The position numbers and the translations under genes were made by a program. Source: Lepraria neglecta (taxonomy: Eukaryota; Ascomycota; Lecanoromycetes; Lecanorales; Stereocaulaceae). Taken from it: a DNA stretch of 64,000 bases. Location of the stretch: NCBI GenBank assembly GCA_033220425.1, contig CM065646.1, positions 5,401,501 to 5,465,500 on the forward strand, written 5' to 3'. The notes under the pieces were generated by a model, which worked only from the letters and a program-made list of their open reading frames with translations, did no database searches and had not been told where the DNA came from. Each line of letters opens with the position of its first letter. Within the stretch, counting starts at the first letter, position 1. This document shows, piece by piece, positions 14,018 through 47,357 of this stretch.

Positions 14018-14368
14018 TCAACTTGGATTCGCCACCATCACATTCGAAGAATTGCCCAAGAATAGGGCGAGTACTGCCGAATAGGCTGCAGTGGCTGTAA
14101 ACACCACCTCCCGTCTGCGTTCTCTCTTGGAGAGGACTGAGCAGGATACAGAAAAAAGGAGAGTAGACAGGAAAACTGTAAGTATCTGCAAGTCGTTTTT
14201 CGTCGCTACCTCTGCAAGAGAGGTTGGCTGAAGCTTAATCAGCACAGAGATCGGTATGACGAGGAGAAAAGATGCCAGAATCGGTAGTAAGATACTGATG
14301 AACACTTCGACAGGGTGGCTGGATGTAAGCTGGAGATGTTTCAAGTCATACCAGACCCCGTCAAGCAT
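14018..14368 (-). pseudogene. Orphan C-terminal membrane module of a DUF6594 protein
   Basis: The stretch encodes about 116 residues that align along their whole length with the last exon of the adjacent DUF6594 gene. They include IPISVLIKLQPTS, LQILTVFLSTLLFSVSCSV, VVFTATAAYSAVLALFLGN and SSNVM. The soluble N-terminal exons are missing. Its first ATG (14368) overlaps the restored stop of the upstream copy (ATGCTTGA). It looks like a tandem duplication of the final exon. It could be a relic, a separate small membrane protein, or an alternative last exon of the neighbouring gene. Confidence 0.6.
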
Positions 14369-15869
14369 TATTCGACACCGCCATCACGCTCGACGTGTTC
14401 CCCAAAAAAGACAACCAGTACCGCGGTGTAAGCAGCGGTGGCGGTGAACACTTCTTGTTTCCTGGCCATGGTGAATATCGAACAGCAAGCTGAAAATGTC
14501 ATCGTGAATAGAAACACAACAAGGATTTGGTAGCGACCTTGAGTCTTGACTTGAGATAAAGAATCTGGCTGAAGTTCCCATAATATTAGGACCGGAAAGA
14601 GTAGTAAAGCGGTAGCAAGGAAGGTCAGAATGGCCCGCAGGAGCGCGTCGAATCGGTCGGGGGAGACGAGGTTCAAGTGTGGTAATGAGCCCGTCTTGAT
14701 TCTTTGCTCTGGTGTGCGGAAGAGTGCCTTGATTGTGTCAGCTTGTCTCGAGACTCTGGTAAGACGACCAGCTTTGTTGATCGACGGTCACGGTCACGAT
14801 CACGGCAGCAAAATGATCTGTTGCATACAATCCAAGAAGAAAGCCGGACGAGAATGGTATAGATGGAAGTCAAAAATAAACCATACTAGATGCTAAAATA
14901 CTCTGCTTACCAATAGTGTTCTCCGTGAGATTTTATTGAGCATGTCCTCGAGAAAGACGTTGAACCAATTGTGTTCGACATCGTGGGCCAAAGCCGCGAG
15001 GTCGTCACCGTGACAGATCCATTCGCCTTCCATAGCGACCAAATTCTGAGAGGCCATTTGATATAGGCTGTTCTGATTTCTCTTCGATGGACTTTTCATG
15101 GCCTGAACCTTTTGTAGACGGAACATCCATTCATCTAGGGAGCATTAGTAAATGGTTCCATGCGTGAATCAGTACGAGCTTACCGTATTCTTTGAGCTTC
15201 CCATTGAGAATTGTTAGGAGTGCCTGCCGTTTTGAGGTAGGAAAAGAAGCATCTCTGCGACGCGAACGTAGTTTCTTGTAATCCCCTTTCTCCAATTCCC
15301 ATCTGTCGAGTCTTTCAAGGTCTTCTTCAAGCTTCTTGAGCTCATCTTGGAGATGCAATAATAAGCGGTTGTGCAGCCATCCGAACTTTCTGTATATCAG
15401 GAAATTAGGATCACAATCCTCAAAGGCGGCGAGTCTCCCATAGCCTTCGCTATATCCATCCACTTGGTAAAGCCGTCGAATTAGCCTACAGCATTAACCA
15501 TGCGATTTTCTAGACTCACACGATCGGATGATGGAAGGTACTCGATAATCGAAGGTAATATCCGATTTATGCCTCGAGAGTCCGAGCGTTTTCTTCAGAC
15601 GACCGAGCAGGGTTTCTTCATTGGCTTCATGAAGCAATATGAGCTCAATGTGGATGTCAGAGTGGAACTCATGGTAACGCACGCTGGCTACTGGCTGCTT
15701 CTTTATCAATGAGGTATATAGAAGACTCAGAAGATGTCGTTGGAAATGGCTGCGCAGTCGTTGGCGGCGCGTAGTCTAGCGTGGTTTGGCGCGTCTCCGT
15801 TTGCCCAGCCGAGCTTTCTCCAACGTCCGCCTTTTCTTCATCTACTCTTCCATGTCGTTTCATAGTCAT
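14368..15869 (-). CDS. DUF6594 membrane protein, copy 1 (tail frameshifted)
   Basis: Minus-strand exons are 15683-15869, 15520-15624, 15184-15462, 14911-15134 and 14368-14727, with intron phases 1,1,1,0 and a total of 384 residues. The N-terminus is disordered. The conserved soluble part has GYGRLAAF, FLIYRKFGWLHNRLLLHLQDE and a helical LEEDLERLDRWE segment. The exon 3 part carries KSPSKRNQNSLY and DLAALAHDVEHNWFN. The end has three hydrophobic helices, as in all copies. The reading frame differs from its paralogues only at the end: a run of six T (14404-14409 on the plus strand) shifts VVFLGNTSSVM to VVFFGEHVERDGGVE. That may be a real mutation or a homopolymer sequencing error. The family function is unknown, and membrane anchoring by the C-terminus is inferred. 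It lies 1.3 kb downstream of a small YRLKD-family gene. Confidence 0.72.
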
Positions 15870-17209: not shown

Positions 17210-17565
17210 TCATCCCTGCCCTGGAAACACTCCAAGATCTTTCTCATCAATCCAATCGGTCACGTACACTTCATTCGGATCTTCACCGCCAGTCCCACTA
17301 TCCTTAGGTGGATGGTCCTTGAGTCTGTATTGGTCTCTTCGAGGGACAGTGTTCGTCTTCCTTCTGCAACAGACCCAAAGCCTCCTATAGGTAGGCTCAC
17401 TATTGGAGTCCAGTTCAAGGAGGCTGTAAACCTGGGTTCCTGGCTCGAAAGCGAATGCGAACTGCCAAAAGATATTTGTCAGAAGGTTTCTCAGAAGGCG
17501 GATTGAGAGCACTATACCTGTTTAAAAGGGTCTTGCACCCCTCCAGCTCCTGAACATTGTCGCAT
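17210..17565 (-). CDS. Small YRLKD-family protein, member 1
   Basis: Exon 1 (17518-17565) and exon 2 (17210-17461) are joined in phase 0 across a 56-nt intron (GTATAG..TTGGCAG), giving 99 residues. Exon 1 is MRQCSGAGGVQDPFKQ. The domain in exon 2 has GTQVYSLLELDSNS, LWVCCRRK, DQYRLKD and, after a longer loop, WIDEKDLG. The same order is found in the members at 27644 and 36513. The alternation of short strands with conserved aromatic residues suggests a small beta-barrel (SH3- or chromo-like) fold, which is inference. The gene sits upstream of and in line with a DUF6594 gene. An earlier start exon is possible. Confidence 0.62.
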
Positions 17566-18199
17566 TCCAGGTAGAACTTGGCACCCAGAAGACGATCGAT
17601 TGCCCCCACCCCCGAAGCTAGGAGGGAGAATCTATGTTCCTTGGTGCTCAGCGTTGGTATAGAAGACTGAGAACGTGAGAGGCATTTACCTCTTTGGGAC
17701 CGTTGTTGTAAGGCGTCTGATAATGACTCTGAGTATCATGCATCATTCAAAATGCAGCCCGATCAAAGTGGGATGGTATCGTGAAAGGTAGGTTCGTGAG
17801 GCATCAAATTGAATTCCAGGATTCATTTATTGTGTGTGCCTGACAGAGGGCGGTCAATTTAATCCAAAAGAGTCCCAGATGGCTCTAATGAATTACACGC
17901 CATCATGGGAAAAGACCGCAATCATAAAGCTCAAAATTGTAATCATGTGAACTGACGAGAAACCACAATAAAGCTCAATAACAAATCTGCGCTTTCGGAA
18001 TGATCGACATTCTCGGAGATTCTTCTACAATAGGAGATTGCTCGCAGCTCTTCTGTATGCTGCTACGCCACCACGTCTATCACACTTAATTTTAAGTCCT
18101 TTCAATAAATCCGGGAGCATCCACACCTTACAAGAGCATTGCATGATAGATGTATTGCATCGCGGCGTCATTTCGAGCGGCGGGAGCCGTCCAGGATTC
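17566..18199. other. Spacer without a supported gene
   Basis: No exon or repeat could be supported here. It should hold the promoter of the small gene ending at 17210. Confidence 0.4.
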
Positions 18200-25560: not shown

Positions 25561-27084
25561 TCAATGTTGGTTCGAGATGATGATGACGTTCGAGGTGTTC
25601 CCTAGGAATACTACAAGCACCGCGCAGTAGGCAGCCGTGGCCGCGAACACCTCCTGTCTTCTCGCTTTGGTGAAGATAGAGCAGGAAAATGAGAACGCAA
25701 GGGTGAACAGGAATATGGTCAGGATTTGAAGCTTATTCCGCCAGCTCACTTGAGACGCCTCATTTGGTTGAAGGTCAACCAGAACAATCACAGGTGCAAG
25801 TAGAAGGACGACGGCGACGATCGTGATGATAATACGCAGGAATGTATCGATGCGATTGGGAGATATTAGCCTCGTGCCAGGCTGAGATCCCGTTTTGAGT
25901 TTCTGCCTTGGGGTGCGAAAAACACCCTGCGATGCGTCAGCTTGCCATCCTCAGTACATGCGATTAGGTCGGTCAAGATCTCACAAGAGACATGCTCAAG
26001 AGATAGTAAGACTATGGCCGGTCTTGGTACCTCGCGCGACATCATACCAGACGAGATGGTCTGGTGAGTCGAGATACACGAGAATAGAATGGGCGTAAGA
26101 CTTCAAGAGAAGCGCTTACCAATATCAGTCCCTTTGAGCATTTATTGAGCATGTCCTCAATAAAGCCATTGAACCACCCGTGTTCTGCCCCGAGCCCCAG
26201 GGCGGCTAAGTCCTCTTTCTGACGGATCCATTTTGCTTCTGATGACACCATGCTCTGGGTTTCTTCGATCATGTTGTAAACACTATTCTGGTTGCGTCTT
26301 GTTGGCTTTTTGATTGCTTGTATTTGGTGTAGGTGCAAGAACACCCTGTCTAGCGATCGGTTAGCATTGCACTGACCCTTGCAGTCGCTTTGTGCTTGAT
26401 GCTTACCATATTCGTCGAGCTTGGCCTTGATCTCGTCAAATAGCTCAGCCCTTGGCCCTATTTTATCTGAACGACGAGACAATAACTTCGGAGGTTGACC
26501 GGACTCGGCTTCCCACTTGTCAAGGTCCTCAAGCTGTTCCTCCAGCAATTGCATCTCATCCTGAAGGTGCAACAAGACGCGGTTATGTAGCCAGCCAAAC
26601 TTGCGATATATTCGGAAGTTGGGATCGCAGTCTATGAAAGCAGCAATTTTTCCATATCCGTTAGGGTACTGGTCAACTATTTGTAGATTAGCAGCAGCAG
26701 TTGTGCCGTCATTGTTTGTACTTGCGTGATTTGATGATCTCGGGTACTTGGTATTCTAGTGTGAGGCTCGTCGAGGAGGACGAAGAATCTGATAGTCCAA
26801 GCACGGCTTTGAGACGGTTGACAACAGTCTTCTTGTGACCTTTATCATTTAGGCGTAAGCCTTCATTCACTGTTTGGGAGCGCTCTGAGCTAGTTACTTT
26901 TTACACTGATGCCCTCTTCGATGAAGGAAAGGGAATTCGCTGCCTCGCCGGACATTCGCTGCGAAGGTGCGTTGAGAGTCGTTGACGGCGGTTGATGGAG
27001 CGCAGGATTGGGCGGGTTTTGGCGCGGATCGGAGTCCGCCGGCGAGCTTTCAACCTCCATCTGTCCTTGTTGCGTCGTGGCCAT
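25561..27084 (-). CDS. DUF6594 membrane protein, copy 2
   Basis: Exons are 26898-27084, 26726-26839, 26407-26676, 26120-26349 and 25561-25926. They give 388 residues with no disabling change. Intron phases (1,1,1,0) match the other copies, and exon 1 (187 nt) has the same length as in copy 1. Intron 2 (26677-26725) uses GCAAGT rather than GT at its 5' end; only this choice keeps the frame, and it gives SLDQYPNGYG where copy 1 has SLDGYSEGYG. The N-terminus is Pro/Ser-rich and disordered. The core has GYGKIAAF, FRIYRKFGWLHNRVLLHLQDE, KKPTRRNQNSVYN and DLAALGLGAEHGWFN. The three C-terminal helices are IIITIVAVVLLLAPVIVLV, LQILTIFLFTLAFSFSCSIF and EVFAATAAYCAVLVVFLGN. Function is unknown. Confidence 0.82.
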
Positions 27085-27643: not shown

Positions 27644-28093
27644 TCAAATGAACTCTAGTTTGCTCTCTTCAATCCAATCTCCCTTGTCTCCATTAGGACT
27701 TTTCTTCAACCGATAGTAGACCATGTTGTTTTCCTTCTTTATACAGCAAATCCAGTATGGCTGATCTTTGATAACTCTGCCATTGGAATCCAACTCGTTC
27801 CGTCGATACACCTGGTTGCCTTTGCCAAATCTGGTAACGACCTGTTACGCCAAGTTTCTTAGCCGCTATCTTGATGATGGAGTGAAGAAGCTACCTTTCT
27901 TTTGGGCCGCTGGTTCTTTTTTGCCCCTTGTTGTGACGATGCGGTTCTTATGCGTGGATCCTCTAAAAAGGCTATTGTATTCTGAGTTCTTTAGTATTGT
28001 GTCCGGCCGTCAATCAAGAGGGAGTAGACTCAAGGCCAACAAGAAACTCACCGCGTCTTGACTACAATCATATAGCATTCGAGGTCTAGACAT
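27644..28093 (-). CDS. Small YRLKD-family protein, member 2
   Basis: Exons are 28052-28093, 27895-27981 and 27644-27841, all joined in phase 0 by introns of 70 and 53 nt (GTGAGT..CTCAG, GTAGCT..AACAG). They give 108 residues. Exon 1 starts MSRPRMLYDCSQDA and exon 2 is basic (KKNQRPKRK), a possible nuclear signal. The domain exon has GNQVYRRNELDSNG, YWICCIKKE, YYRLKK and GDWIEESKLEF. It ends 560 bases upstream of DUF6594 copy 2 on the same strand. Function is unknown; the domain may be a small beta-barrel interaction module. The first exon is the least certain part. Confidence 0.62.
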
Positions 28094-34377: not shown

Positions 34378-35820
34378 CTACTGGTGTGCCATTACATTGG
34401 ATGTGTTTCCTAGAAACACTACAAGCACAGCACAATATGCTGCAGTAGCAGTGAAGACCTCTTGTCTTCGGGCTTTGGTGAATATGGAGCAACTAGCTGA
34501 GAAAAGCATCGTGGACACAAAAACAGTCAGAATTTGATAGTTGCTCTTGCGATGGAACTCTGCTTGGGACGCGGGCTGAAGCCTAAAAAGCGCGAATACT
34601 GGGAAAAGAAGTAGCATAGCAGCAACGACAGTAACGATCATGCGAGCGACAATATCGAGACGATCGGCCGAGATTAGCTGAATGTCTTCGTTACCGCTCT
34701 TGCGGTTCTGTTCTGACGTTCGAAAGATGCGCTGGTCAGACTTGTCAGAATAGGAGCATGACTCAGACCATGCGAACATCAGGCGCATAGGGAATGAGAT
34801 GAGGCTAGAGTCTGGATTCAAATCCTTTACATTGCCAAGAATGACGAAAAGTTCAAAAAGGCATGAGGGAATGAACCTACGAGTGTCAGGGCTTTTGAGA
34901 TTTTACTCAACACGTCTTCGAGAAATGTGTTCAGCCAACTGTATTCGACAGCGTAGCCGAGTGCTGCCAAATCTGGCCCGTGTTTGACCCATGCGGATTC
35001 ACCCTCCACGAGGCTATGGGTATTGCTGATCAGGTTGTACAGATTGTTCTGAGACCTGTTGGTTGGCCGCTTCAGTCCGTAGATTTTCTGCTTCCGCAGC
35101 AATGCCTTGTCTGACAGTACGTCAACAGTTGAGAAAGCATTCTAGGATGTTCCGACATACAATACTGCTTGAGCTTAAGGTTAGCCAAATTCAACAGCTC
35201 TCTGCGTTTCGAATCCTCGAAGGTGCTATCTCTCCGGCGCGAGACCATCCTTCTGAAATCGCCAAATTCTCCAGCCTCCCATTCATCGAAGCCCTCTAAT
35301 TCTTCTTGTATGCAAGCGATCTCGTCCTGTAGTTGTAGTAATACGTAGTTGTAAAGCCATGAAAACTTCCTGTAGAATAAAAAATCCCCATCGAGGTCTT
35401 GGATCGCGGCGATCTTACCGTATCCTGGGGCAAATTCGTCCACTGTAGTATAGAATTAATAAAGCCCCTACAATTGAGAGAGTGCCGACTCACATGAGCG
35501 GGTAATTTGTTCGATTTGCTCAGAACTTGAGAGATGAAGCAATTTTCTCATGAGAGTGCGCAAACTTCTTTGCCGTTTTGCTGAGAATGTTAGTCCAGTC
35601 CAGATATGCCCCATCTGCGCGTACCATCACTTCCATTTTCGGCATCTGATTCCGAATTGATGCTCTTCGATGAGTCTGAATCACAATCTGTTGTGGGTGA
35701 CCCGGGTGCTGACTGCTGAAGCTCTTTCTCGACAGTTTCGTCGGAGATGTCAGCATTATTGGTGATGTCAGACGAGGGCAAGTCGTGATCTCCGTCGAAA
35801 TCCGCGCGTATATCTTGCAT
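34378..35820 (-). CDS. DUF6594 membrane protein, copy 3
   Basis: Exons are 35625-35820, 35494-35580, 35161-35442, 34881-35110 and 34378-34731, giving 382 residues with all frames intact. Exon 1 (196 nt) and exon 4 (230 nt) have exactly the lengths of copy 4. Intron 1 is only 44 nt (GTACGC..CTAACATTCTCAG). The acidic, Ser/Asp-rich N-terminus is followed by SLDEFAPGYGKIAAI, FYRKFSWLYNYVLLQLQDE, KRPTNRSQNNLYN and DLAALGYAVEYSWLN. The helices include MIVTVVAAMLLLFPVFAL, YQILTVFVSTMLFSASCSIF and EVFTATAAYCAVLVVFLGN. The small YRLKD gene ends 0.7 kb upstream. Function is unknown. Confidence 0.83.
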
Positions 35821-36512: not shown

Positions 36513-37364
36513 TCAGTACTTCTGGTTGAAACTCGTCATCTTCACCAATTTTCCTTCGCTATACCAACCAAGTCTTTTTCCATCTTTATCTTTCAATCTG
36601 TATTCCCATCTCTTTTTTTGGATGTTCCACTTTGTGCAACAGATGCGAAGTGGTCTTCTAGTTTGCCTGCCCTGCGAGTCTAGCTCAGTCTTGTCGTAGA
36701 CTTCCTCATCGCTATCATACTGGCGCGGTGGCTGTTCAAGCAAAGTCAGAACTTAGTCCAAGAAGGCACATACTGATCTGGGAAGTATTTACCTGCTGGT
36801 CTGGGTGCTTATTGACTGTCGTTGCTGAATAGATGCCCGGGCAAGGGGAGTGCGTAGTGGATTGGTCTCCTATATCCTGATCATTTCAATACAAGGACCG
36901 GTAAGATAGTGTCTGCTGCTGCACCTGCTGATCTCCAGAGCAATTGGAACTACCCATATATTGATCTCTCGTGCTCTGCTATTGTCAGCAAAATGACAGG
37001 GATGCCGAGGCTTAGCACTTACCTCGTATCCTCCACCATATGTGGAGCCATAGGTAGACTGGCCTCCCGCACCCTGACTAGGTCAGTCATGGCATCAGGA
37101 ATACACAAGGTTGGGAATGCACATATTGTTGTGGCGGATAGGTTGGATAGGTTGAAGTTTGGTATCCCGTGCTCTGATCTCGTCAGTAGAGACTCTAAAG
37201 GACCTTAGGGCATAATCATACGTCAGGATCTCCGGTGTAAGTCGTATTGCCTGTAGATCGACTTCCTGAGCCCTGGTCCAGTCAGCAATGGAATAAACAT
37301 GTTTTAGCTTCGCATTGACCCTTTGATCGCGTTGAGAGTATGAACCTCGGGGGTCTCGATCCAT
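36513..37364 (-). CDS. Small YRLKD-family protein, member 3, with mini-exon array
   Basis: Seven exons are read: 37320-37364, 37222-37272, 37123-37173, 37023-37073, 36925-36975, 36793-36876 and 36513-36731. All junctions are phase 0, and the product has 183 residues. Exons 2-5 are each exactly 51 nt, and introns 1-5 are 47, 48, 49, 47 and 48 nt. The mini-exons encode 17-residue Gly/Ser/Thr/Tyr/Gln-rich peptides such as GAGGQSTYGSTYGGGYE. The last exon has the family domain: EEVYDKTELDSQGR, RICCTKW, WEYRLKDKDGK and GWYSEGKLVK. The low-complexity part resembles prion-like or phase-separating segments. Intron 1 starts with a weak GTCAAT site. Skipping any mini-exon would keep the frame. It lies 0.7 kb upstream of DUF6594 copy 3. 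Confidence 0.62.
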
Positions 37365-42636: not shown

Positions 42637-44108
42637 TCAGCTGATACCTGCTGTCGCCATTACGCTTGACGTATTCCCCAAAAACACTACGAGAACTGCG
42701 GAGTAGGCAGCTGTAGCTGCGAAGACTTCCTGTCGGCTTGCCTGAGTGAAGATGGAACAAGAGGCAGAAAAAACAAGAGTAAAAGCGAACACGGTCACAA
42801 TCTGGTAGTTACTCTTCCGCTCGAATTCAGACTTGTTGGTGGGCTGGAGTTTGAATAATACGAAGACCGGGACCAGAAGCAGGACAGCTGCTATAACGGT
42901 AATCATCCCGCGGATCAGGACATCAAAGCGTCGATTCGACACAAGTTGAATCGCTTCGTCGCCCGTTTTGAGCCTTTGCTCGCGACTACGGCATAGAGCC
43001 TGTTGCGAGTTGTCAGCATAGGCATTATGGCCCCAAGGAATCAGTTACGATCTTGAGATTCTGAACGGAAATGTCGCCACAAAGGATGCAATCTAGCAAG
43101 GTGTAGAGGGAAATGATGCCAAACATGCCTTGGAGGCTTACCTTGGTCATTGCCCTCGAGATCAGGTTCAGGAAATCCTCGAGTCTGGCGTTCAGCCAAC
43201 CATGATCGCCACCATATCCTAGTGCTGCAAGATCTGGTCCTTCATGGATCCAGTCGGATTCGTCTTGCACTAGACTCCCTGTGTTGCTGATGAGATTGTA
43301 TACGTTACGTTGAGACCGTTTAGTGGGTCTCTTCAGTGCTTGGACTTTTTGCCATCGTAGCAAAGCGTCATCTGTAACTATGTCAGCATTGGTCCATCCA
43401 GATCGAATCTTCGTTCGGCTCACCATACTTCGCAAGCTTTTCGTGGAGTTCAGCTACGATTCCTTTCCGTCTGGACCTAGGCTGATCGTAATCCAGTCGA
43501 CGTGAGTAGAGCAAGGTTTCATTTCCGTCACTCAACTCCCATCTATCAAGAGCTTCCAACTCCTCTTGTAATTCGGCAAGCTCATCTTGCAGATGCAGTA
43601 GCGCATAATTGTGGAGCCACCCATATTTACGGTAGACCAGCAGGTCAGAATCTAAGTTCTCGATCGCTGCGACTTTGCCATATCCTCGGGGGTACTCATT
43701 TACTACCATTTGCATGTCAACGACTGCCGTAGTACTAGGACGACAGTGCTCACGAGAATGGGTAATCTGCTCTACTCGACCCTTTGAAAATCCTCTTTTG
43801 TATCTCTTGGATAGGTGCAGAGCTGTTGTGATACGACGATGGAACGATCCTCTCTTCTCTGCTGGCCATATCAGACCTGCTAAAGACCTTGGAATGATTG
43901 CACGGTACGTACCATTATTGCTAGTGTCCTCTTCCAACGACGACTGCGAGTCAAATGGAATTGCTACCACTGAGCAACTACTCGATGCTCTAATCGATGC
44001 CTCTTGGTTTTGTAGAACATGAACGGCTTGACCGGAGTTTCCAGATGCTTCATTGTCTACTTGACGGGGCACACCGTCATTGCCACTTGTCGGGCATGAC
44101 CCTTTCAT
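42637..44108 (-). CDS. DUF6594 membrane protein, copy 4
   Basis: Exons are 43913-44108, 43754-43858, 43424-43702, 43142-43371 and 42637-42999, giving 390 residues with no disabling change. Intron starts are GTACGT, GTGAGC, GTGAGC and GTAAGC, with phases 1,1,1,0. The N-terminal 100 residues are disordered. The core has SLNEYPRGYGKVAAI, LVYRKYGWLHNYALLHLQDE, a LQEELEALDRWE helix, KRPTKRSQRNVYN and DLAALGYGGDHGWLN. The end has MITVIAAVLLLVPVFVL, YQIVTVFAFTLVFSASCSIF and EVFAATAAYSAVLVVFLGN. It is the only full copy for which I found no YRLKD gene upstream. Confidence 0.84.
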
Positions 44109-44653
44109 AGCGCAAGCAAGTCCAAGATTTTATACCTGCAGATCCGGGAAAGCCTGTGCAATCCACGCTATAGCGTGATTAATCTTGAGAAAGTGCGTGT
44201 TGTCAGCTTCGAAAGTCTGAATGAGGCTCATAATGGCGTGCGACTATGCAAGGAATGATTGGTACATTCCTTAGCTTTGTCACACTGCCCTTGCCCTGAT
44301 CCATGTGAATTGCCGGCCCACTACTGGACAGATTTCGGCAAAACGTAACGATTTGCACACACCCGAAGGACGGGATGACGCTCCAGTAATTTCCGCCAGT
44401 CATTATCGGACAGACATAATCGGGCATAACATCATGGGTGCTAGCTTCGCTGCCTTTTCTCATGCGAGTGGTGTAGGTGATCGAAGCCTAAGTGGTCGGG
44501 AACAGGCTGAGGGGCACATAGGGCTGATTATTTTCAGCTTGCTTTAGGAAGGTTACATAGCAAATGCGCCTTTCTGCAGCTACCACTGTCGCGCTGTTCT
44601 GATTCGGTACGTGAGTTTTCCGTTATGGATTTCCTGATTTTTGAGATCACTTA
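44109..44653. other. Spacer upstream of DUF6594 copy 4
   Basis: It probably contains the promoter of copy 4. No exon with YRLKD-family motifs was found here or further upstream. Confidence 0.4.
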
Positions 44654-44986
44654 ATGGCTTCTGGGTACATTGGTTCTACAAGATATATGGCGTCATTTCT
44701 GTTCCTGCTCGTTGTATTGATATTGCAATTTTTTCAGGTTACGCTCCGAAACCTCCGTGACATCCTTTCCGTGAGGAAATGGCGCATCCTTCAGCTTATA
44801 GTACCACCCTTCCTTGCGACCCTCTTTCTTCTTCTTCCATCTGTAGCAACAGACCCAGCGTCGTGTGCGGCGCTCTTCGCCGTTCTTTCTCTTGTCGTTT
44901 TTGTCGTAGACTTCATCTCCAGGATGGTATTTTCTCGGAGGCTAATCTCAATGGTATCAGAGATGAATTCTGTGAGGGAAGCATGA
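44654..44986 (+). CDS. Possible small membrane protein
   Basis: This 110-residue ORF starts at ATG and is strongly hydrophobic. It has three likely membrane helices (YMASFLFLLVVLILQFF, ILQLIVPPFLATLFLLLPSV, ALFAVLSLVVFVVDFISRMV) and basic linkers, which are hard to obtain by chance in non-coding DNA. I do not recognise the family. The helix pattern is loosely like the end of DUF6594 proteins, but no motif matches. It may be a remnant of a longer gene. Confidence 0.35.
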   Translation: MASGYIGSTRYMASFLFLLVVLILQFFQVTLRNLRDILSVRKWRILQLIVPPFLATLFLLLPSVATDPASCAALFAVLSLVVFVVDFISRMVFSRRLISMVSEMNSVREA

Positions 44987-47357
44987 CGGAACAAAGGCAC
45001 CCTTGTGTCCTCTTTATGTTGGGAGTCGGCGGCGGATCGGAAGCTTGGCACGTAGGCATCGATGGATCTTTGCTCGATGCTCTTGTCTCATCAGTCCCAT
45101 GCAGCACCAAAGATTCCCCAGACTTCAGATGACTACTCACCTTTGTAACATAAGGGCAGGTCTGACTTCTTCTTGAATGATTCATGTCGTTGACTTGAAT
45201 GCTTTTTGTACCACTGAAGAAAGTAACTCAAATAGTCCTAGCTCAGGCGACTCAACGTAGAGGATGTCTCGAAAGTCTGGAGCCACTCCAAGCCTTATGA
45301 ACTATGGCACGAACACTTTTATTCCTCTAACCCTCAAGGGAGTGCGACAAGGCGGTACCAAAGGACAAAGCCGCTGTGCGGTACCACACCCTCTCGGCAC
45401 AGCATAGCCCAAGAGATGCTGCCACGTCACTTCAACCTTACAAAAAAGCTGCAGAGCCGCTTCAAAATATTTCAGAAGGCAACCAAAGCTGAAAAGAAGG
45501 CATCCTTCTTCCTTGTGTATCACGTGCGACCGCGAGCAATGGCGGTCAGCACCATGCAGTAGTAATGGTCGTCCACGCGTCGGACATAGCGAGATTGGTG
45601 CCCAACCGCACCTCTGGATACCACCAATCGGTACATGAACGTGGCGGAAAGGGTACATGAGACAACGACCAAACAGATTTCGCGGTACTCGCTAAGGCTT
45701 AGCGATAGGATCGTAGCTCGCTGGAAATTAGGAGAGTACCAGCTCGATTGAGTCTAGGGGTCTTGTCAGAATGCAACAACATTATTCGAGGTGCATGACA
45801 AACTATGGAGATCGTTCGGCTTGGCTTCGATCATTGTTTCAAGGGAGCGTAAAAGCTTTACAGGAGCTGCCGGCAATATGAGCCTTTAATGGTTCGTTAG
45901 ACAAGCTGCATTATCTAGCCTCGAACGGCATTCCGAACCTGCATATACTATCATCAATCGATACTCTCAGCCTTGTGGAATGTGAGAAATCATCATGAAC
46001 ATTGCCAATCGCTGGAGGCGTTCGACCCTGAGCCTACCCCGGCTATTTTGCCGGTGCTCACCAATGAGCTTCGGTCCACTGCAAAGATCCTGCGGTCTAT
46101 CCAAGAAAGCATTTCTGTTGACACGAATACGGGCACGTTCCTGTATTGATTTTGTCTCAGAGAATCAGCAACAGTACTATATAGATCCTTGGAGCTTCTT
46201 TTGACATGAAATGGCTACTACTCCTGAATCTGGGCGGCGCATGACCCGGTTTCGTCCGATGGCTTGTGCCGCTCAGGTGCAGCGCAGGCCATCATGCACC
46301 TCAAGACGCTTGGACTTGATCCTTGATGCAGTCGTCTGGCGCTCTTCTCCTTTGATCTGCTAGTGTGAAGAACTTGAGTCCAGCCATGGAAGTTTGTACC
46401 GAGGCTGAGCGCTCTCGCAGAGGCGTCTTTCAAACAATGGCGCTTGCATCTGAATGGTTCCATATCCCGAATCGACTAATAACCATGTCAGCGAGCGGGT
46501 ACAACTTCTGCAAGACGCAGTGTTACTCGGGCGCAGGACTTCCTGCATGGTACTTAAACAGCAGCGTTTAGCCATAGATTGGTCCACATTGACCAGGAAT
46601 AAGACATCTTCGGCTCATCTCTTGTAACATCCACCGTCTCGTCTCCCATTGGAAGTGAATCTCTCCGAGGCTGGCACCTTCGGTCCATATTTGTGGCTTT
46701 CCAAGCGCTAACATGCAATACCAGTCTCCCAATCGATATTCTCCAGTGCATGCTGTAGCTAGGAGGCACGATCTTGCGCATAGCTGCATACATTAGCCAG
46801 TCTCGGGTTCATGCATGAATCATCTAGGTCAATCAGGATGTGACCCAAGACCAAGCTTACTGGAGCCTAAAACACATCTTCCAGATGTTCTATCGTCGTT
46901 CGTCAAGTTGTGGAATCGAGCATAAAGAATTATGAAATGGAAGACTCTTACCAAGCCATTACGAACCTGTCAGTCCAATAAGCGACAACAATCAGTCCTC
47001 AAAGAGATAGCACGCTCTGGTGTTTCGAATCTGCCGAATGAGAAGCCTTGGTGTTACAGGTACGAGGCCTTGTAGCCTAGTGCCACCTTCAATCGTCGGG
47101 AGAATCTTGAAGATGTGAGGGTTTTTAGCGTCAAGGGGTCTTCTGGGAACAACATGATTGCTGAACAGCTTGTTTGCTCTGCGACGAATATCACGGCGGA
47201 TCGGAAGAGTCTCCAAGGAGCGCTTGAGCAGTATGTCTCTTTACATCGAAAGCATTTTCCATTCGTATGGCATGCTAATAGTTCTGCTCTAATGGTCGCT
47301 GCACGTTAGTATCAGCAAGCATTAAAGCACTCAACCTCGTCCTCAACCTGATCCTCC
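44987..47357. other. Gene desert of 2.4 kb
   Basis: There are no supported genes or RNA genes. Short ORFs lack continuation or family features. Confidence 0.4.

Follow-up and report, generated by a model that had tools for sequence, protein, structure and literature searches.

A five-unit tandem exon duplication, real and old as judged from its sequence, lies in a small fungal gene predicted on the minus strand at 37364-36513 of the window, by which we mean the whole analysed stretch of 64,000 nucleotides (C1:5401501-5465500; the genome comprises 42.0 Mb in 11 contigs). Reading of the sequence gave a model of seven exons (45, 51, 51, 51, 51, 84 and 219 nt) and six introns (47, 48, 49, 47, 48 and 61 nt), in which all junctions are in phase 0. 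The predicted product is open over 183 codons through all seven exons. Exon 1 (37320..37364, minus strand as for all following exons and introns, 45 nt, MDRDPRGSYSQRDQR) contains the start codon; it is polar and on inspection showed no obvious signal peptide. It is followed by four mini-exons of 51 nt each, namely exon 2 (unit 1, 37222..37272, GSGSRSTGNTTYTGDPD), exon 3 (unit 2, 37123..37173, STGYQTSTYPTYPPQQY), exon 4 (unit 3, 37023..37073, GAGGQSTYGSTYGGGYE) and exon 5 (unit 4, 36925..36975, STRDQYMGSSNCSGDQQ). Exon 6 (unit 5, 36793..36876, 84 nt) is a copy of the mini-exon with about 33 extra nt close to its 3' end, and the terminal exon 7 (36513..36731, 219 nt including the stop) holds a conserved basic region that is common to the paralogs described below. 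A preliminary description of this DNA had given acceptor-to-acceptor distances of 99, 100, 98 and 99 nt, four exons of 51 nt with five introns of 47-49 nt, and phase 0 at every junction. All of these values were recovered, the exons and introns concerned being exons 2-5 and introns 1-5, and the uniform phase was found to extend to the junctions of the added sixth intron. This intron and exon 7 (36731-36513) lie beyond the coordinates of that description, which end at the 84-nt exon.

The relatedness of the mini-exon peptides, likewise claimed before, was evident when exons 2-5 were compared in register. Identity was found at 149 of 306 pairwise positions, so that the mini-exons are about 49% identical, against a mean of 83 (SD 8) after codon shuffling, and none of 20,000 shuffles reached the observed value. 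Upon rotation of the codons within these exons, the observed match was reached by only one of 4,913 arrangements, the true register. Exon 6 could be placed in the same series by a gap scan in which about 33 nt were left out: it matched the four mini-exons at 101 of 204 positions (shuffled mean 62.8, SD 8.4; 0 of 2,000 shuffles), and in an anchored test of its first 21 nt against the mini-exons the observed match was again reached by 0 of 2,000 shuffles. Free local alignment to the mini-exons, a weaker test than the in-register comparison, was significant for exon 5 only (P 0.005) and not for exons 2, 3, 4 and 6 (P 0.13-0.42). The case for homology therefore rests on the anchored, in-register tests, and the similarity of the mini-exons is position-specific but diverged. 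Differences among them at the three codon positions numbered 58, 40 and 59, which gives no clear sign of purifying selection. Exon 1 was also considered as a further copy of the unit and found no support (P 0.94 in local alignment; 0.14-0.93 in anchored tests).

The level of identity, about 49%, indicates that the units are old. Tandem Repeats Finder did not report the mini-exon array; this silence and the divergence of the copies rule out a recent minisatellite-like array, and make a recent change in cassette number from strain to strain by slippage unlikely. A genome search with the joined N-terminal part returned the focal locus only, plus one match at E 1.75, and a genome DNA search with the whole focal gene returned only the gene itself.

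A chance pattern of splice sites was ruled out by two chain scans and their simulations. A scan of 124 kb on both strands for at least three equal-length phase-0 exons of 30-102 nt detected the focal array alone, and the same scan detected none on 40 simulated 124-kb strands. In the real sequence three of the four mini-exons were chained, because introns 1, 3 and 5 have poor-looking donors and intron 5 lacks a CTRAC branch site. With looser settings, applied to about 233 kb in which some loci overlap, the focal array was the sole phase-0 chain of at least four short exons; here five focal exons were chained, exon 5 being taken as 54 nt via an alternative acceptor. The longest chain on 60 simulated strands had three exons and occurred in 2 of the 60.

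The introns of the array are uniform in length and branch spacing. The sequence CTGAC terminates 8 nt ahead of the exon in intron 1 (37273..37319, 47 nt, donor GTCAAT), intron 2 (37174..37221, 48 nt), intron 3 (37074..37122, 49 nt, donor GTGCAT) and intron 4 (36976..37022, 47 nt, donor GTAAGT), and intron 5 (36877..36924, 48 nt, donor GTGCAG) has a degenerate branch sequence, TTGAA, at the same 8 nt. In intron 6 (36732..36792, 61 nt), whose position corresponds to intron 2 in the paralogs, the distance of CTGAC from the exon is 13 nt. A spacing of 8 nt was present in 9 of 80 relaxed intron candidates from the background. As introns 1-5 share it, the duplicated block probably comprised an intron together with an exon. 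The donors of introns 1, 3 and 5 look poor in an unscored comparison with the fungal consensus. As a separate observation, a tandem acceptor, TAGCAG (36976-36981, minus strand), precedes mini-exon 5 and could add or omit one glutamine.

Similarity among introns 1-5 was compared with a background of only 15 introns, picked for strict donors, which raises the background of the 5' ends. The last 18 positions before AG were more alike than this background (93 versus 49, SD 6), the middle part was borderline (75 versus 70, P 0.04), and the first 14 positions after GT showed no such likeness, their 46 matches of 140 falling short of the background mean (58). We read this pattern as one that old common descent with conservation of the branch region would leave.

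Further evidence comes from paralogs within the window. With the terminal exon as query, three more genes were found on the same strand at approximately 17.4, 27.7 and 44.8 kb (E 2.7e-4, 1.9e-3 and 3.1e-4, respectively), here called p17, p27 and p44. They were confirmed with other family members as queries, one of which missed p44. Their exon boundaries were picked by eye and yielded three-exon models that are in phase 0 throughout: p17 (17210..17746, minus strand) with exons of 57 and 114 nt before the terminal exon, p27 (27644..28093, minus strand) with 42 and 87 nt, and p44 (44693..45185, minus strand) with 45 and 81 nt. Each of the three models has a single middle exon, and the single-unit state is thus present within the genome. 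Given the common plan of exon 1, intron, middle exon, intron and terminal exon, what sets the focal gene apart is four additional middle units. Phase 0 at all junctions of the model is probably ancestral, since all three paralog models have it throughout.

Nine columns of the terminal exon are invariant among the four family members, and the terminal regions of the paralogs share 31-37% identity with that of the focal gene. At the acceptor junction of exon 2 the paralogs differed in their likeness to the array. In the case of p44, only one of 688 background acceptors matched the array junctions equally well or better (P 0.0015, with seven junctions tested); the junction of p27 was only suggestive (P 0.04) and that of p17 showed no similarity (P 0.95). 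When exons 1 and 2 of the paralogs were assessed as unit copies from exon sequence alone, none of 24 anchored tests was significant after correction; the best uncorrected values were P 0.0025 for exon 1 of p27 and P 0.0155 for exon 2 of p44. Pfam gave no hit for the focal terminal exon, nor, at E values up to 10, any for the terminal exons of the four family members or the joined product of 183 aa. Among PDB sequences no profile match was found, and the single-sequence search yielded only E values of 1.2 and 3.9.

The explanation that we favour, and which as a whole we consider fairly probable, is that an ancestral block of intron 1 plus exon 2 was amplified to five, and that the resulting exons form a constitutively spliced spacer before a basic domain, with a DUF6594 protein as possible partner. 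The ancestral gene would have consisted of exon 1, exon 2 and a terminal exon, separated by two phase-0 introns (introns 1 and 2). Tandem amplification of the block, about 99 bp long, would then have given five units in the focal gene, amplification rather than loss being the presumed direction of change; the last unit would be the 84-nt exon 6, whose additional 33 nt or so were either kept or gained. Each added copy would contribute 17 residues to the N-terminal G/S/T/Y-rich segment and leave the C-terminal region untouched. Because the block is symmetric, with phase 0 at both ends, extra copies come without cost to the frame, and its duplication accounts for the uniform phase with no need of a role in splicing. 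The introns are short, for which reason we expect the exons of the model, if transcribed and spliced as predicted, to be included constitutively by intron definition. The outcome would be a spacer of low complexity, about 110 residues long and presumably disordered, ahead of a terminal exon that may represent a small basic domain, and this small protein may act together with the putative membrane protein of the DUF6594 gene encoded just downstream. Tandem duplication of an exon-intron unit had already been proposed in the preliminary description. The exons in one register, the 8-nt branch spacing and the single-unit paralogs agree with it, whereas the 5' ends of the introns, being unlike, do not.

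A different role for the array, proposed in the preliminary description and by which cells would include varying numbers of the 51-nt exons and thereby tune the length of the low-complexity segment, appears unlikely. All cassettes are symmetric, as stated in the preliminary description, so that the frame survives any skip, and the weak-looking donors of introns 1, 3 and 5 would be in line with such variation. A paper on Aspergillus reportedly deals with exon skipping and exon loss. Passages of two further papers describe nank genes of Tuber melanosporum that diversify via alternatively spliced, codon-sized microexons (PMC3689799, PMC4986451, citing Iotti et al. 2012). The phase, however, is common to the three-exon paralogs and needs no splicing function, and in Fusarium graminearum exon skipping is given for 4 of 231 alternatively spliced genes, most events being intron retention, in the relevant part of one report (PMC3577648). 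Intron 5, if retained, would introduce an in-frame stop (TGA); this, together with donors that look poor in introns 1, 3 and 5, makes intron retention, judged from the predicted sites, a source of variants that is at least as likely as cassette skipping.

Somewhat less likely again is a decaying gene, in which the array is real by descent, yet mis-splicing results from weak donors and from the lack of a branch site in intron 5, with retention of intron 5 stopping translation before the terminal region. The features of intron 5, which has no CTRAC, a GTGCAG donor and a stop upon read-through, would suit such decay; against it, all seven exons are still open over the 183 codons and the terminal exon keeps its nine columns invariant with the three paralogs. 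Splitting of an uninterrupted exon of 51-nt coding repeats by later intron gain at equivalent places is improbable: although the introns are little alike except at their 3' ends, the paralogs already have a phase-0 intron on each side of exon 2, the five introns fall into one length class with one branch spacing, and the block duplication that we prefer is a simpler account than five separate intron insertions that all hit the same phase and register.

The mini-exon segment consists to 79% of G, S, T, Y, Q and N. Only 9 of the 68 mini-exon residues (13%) are Q or N. The preliminary description had spoken of a prion-like tail, and neither part of this term is supported. The low-complexity part is N-terminal, the actual tail being the conserved exon, and the segment is rich in G, S, T and Y, not in Q and N; it does not contain the Q/N-rich stretch of a yeast-type prion domain.

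A gene with DUF6594 (PF20237) lies downstream of each of the four window genes, on the same strand and 0.6-1.7 kb away. Its pieces were found at 34381..35455 for the focal gene (about 1.1 kb downstream; E 2.3e-22 and 2.6e-14), at 42640..44129 for p44 (about 0.6 kb), at 25564..26755 for p27 (about 0.9 kb) and at 14021..15493 for p17 (about 1.7 kb), all on the minus strand, the last region containing two C-terminal copies. Between 14021 and 45185 of the minus strand a two-gene module, a small low-complexity gene followed by a DUF6594 gene, is hence seen four times at a spacing of 8-10 kb. In the gaps of 5-8 kb between modules few long ORFs are open, as counted from unspliced ORFs. With one C-terminal DUF6594 piece taken from each of the four modules and the extra copy m17b excluded, the pieces are 55-61% identical to one another; m17b is 45-51% identical to them. 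Set against the 31-37% of the small-protein terminal regions, the value of 55-61% suggests that, for the compared pieces only, the small partner may evolve faster than DUF6594.

Outside the window, the query that missed p44 gave a weak match at C5:178 kb (E 0.064). Used as a query in turn, this sequence found itself, C1:3.336 Mb (E 1.1e-12), C6:1.483 Mb (E 4.1e-11) and p27 in the window (E 0.0098). We call the C5, C1 and C6 copies three relics of the family; each sits between DUF6594 matches. A weaker solitary copy (L006, C5:1024518-1024680, minus strand) has the halves of the conserved region in different frames and, among the 78 matches listed, no DUF6594 match nearby. Seven of the eight family members found, the four in the window and the three relics, thus adjoin DUF6594, the copy at C5:1.02 Mb being the exception. 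It is likely that the four window modules form one lineage and the three relics another. The elements that contain the relics (C5:176933-179793, C1:3334626-3337458 and C6:1482057-1485060; L025, L026, L034-L036) are alike, with DUF6594 matches inverted around the relic of the small gene and many TAG and TAA codons inside these matches; they look like RIP-mutated duplicates. In the reverse direction, 30 DUF6594 loci were scanned together with their flanks of 1.5 kb, and the family was detected at E <0.01 in four (L025, L026, L043 and L057, the first and last being one place), a count that is too low because such flanks are too short for several of the known partners in the window. The name DUF6594 was not found in the open-licence literature searched.

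We give little credence to a more far-reaching proposal, in which the small protein would constitute, with the membrane protein of the DUF6594 gene, a tandemly repeated, fast-evolving module, possibly a self/nonself or conflict system, and the array would set the length and, perhaps through splicing, also the set of isoforms of an adhesive low-complexity segment; this would be a fungal exon-array diversity generator outside NLR genes. A spore-killer lead (SKC1) was dropped, no sequence link having been made. The window also encodes an SNF2-type helicase, an SP-RING protein and a SAM/PH protein, a gene content that, like the short CTRAC-containing introns, is in keeping with a filamentous ascomycete.

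Duplicated-exon arrays are familiar in animals. Fibrillar collagen genes contain tandemly duplicated short exons of a fixed 54 nt in phase 0, which lengthen a repetitive segment of the protein as those of the focal gene would; the latter differs by its 51 nt, its five units, its short fungal introns and the lack of a Gly-X-Y repeat. Xlr2 of Trichoderma virens also has a small exon in a filamentous fungus, but that is one isolated switch exon of a transcription factor and not a duplicated array. In the micro-exon genes of Schistosoma mansoni, as described in part of one article (PMC10526429), short exons of 3-81 bp form much of a variable, secreted protein and introns reach 5 kb, whereas exon length is uniform in the focal array, its introns are about 48 nt and its first exon lacks the look of a signal peptide. 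The nank (NACHT-ankyrin) genes are likewise an ascomycete family with many tiny exons; in the passages cited above these are codon-sized, alternatively spliced and located in NLR-type receptors, in contrast to 51-nt exons in five units of a predicted 183-residue protein, whose joined sequence had no NACHT or ankyrin domain in Pfam up to E 10. No fungal array of the present shape was recognised among the matches listed from the open-licence literature (titles and starts of abstracts).

The window paralogs offer a view, within one genome, of an array before and after its presumed growth from one symmetric exon, and they tie an uncharacterised family of small proteins to DUF6594. Should isoforms exist, splice control of low-complexity length would become testable in a fungus amenable to culture and manipulation. 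Upstream of the window, self-comparison revealed a minisatellite-like repeat whose period is about 39 bp (approximately positions 12-351 of locus L008, C1:5371512-5371851).
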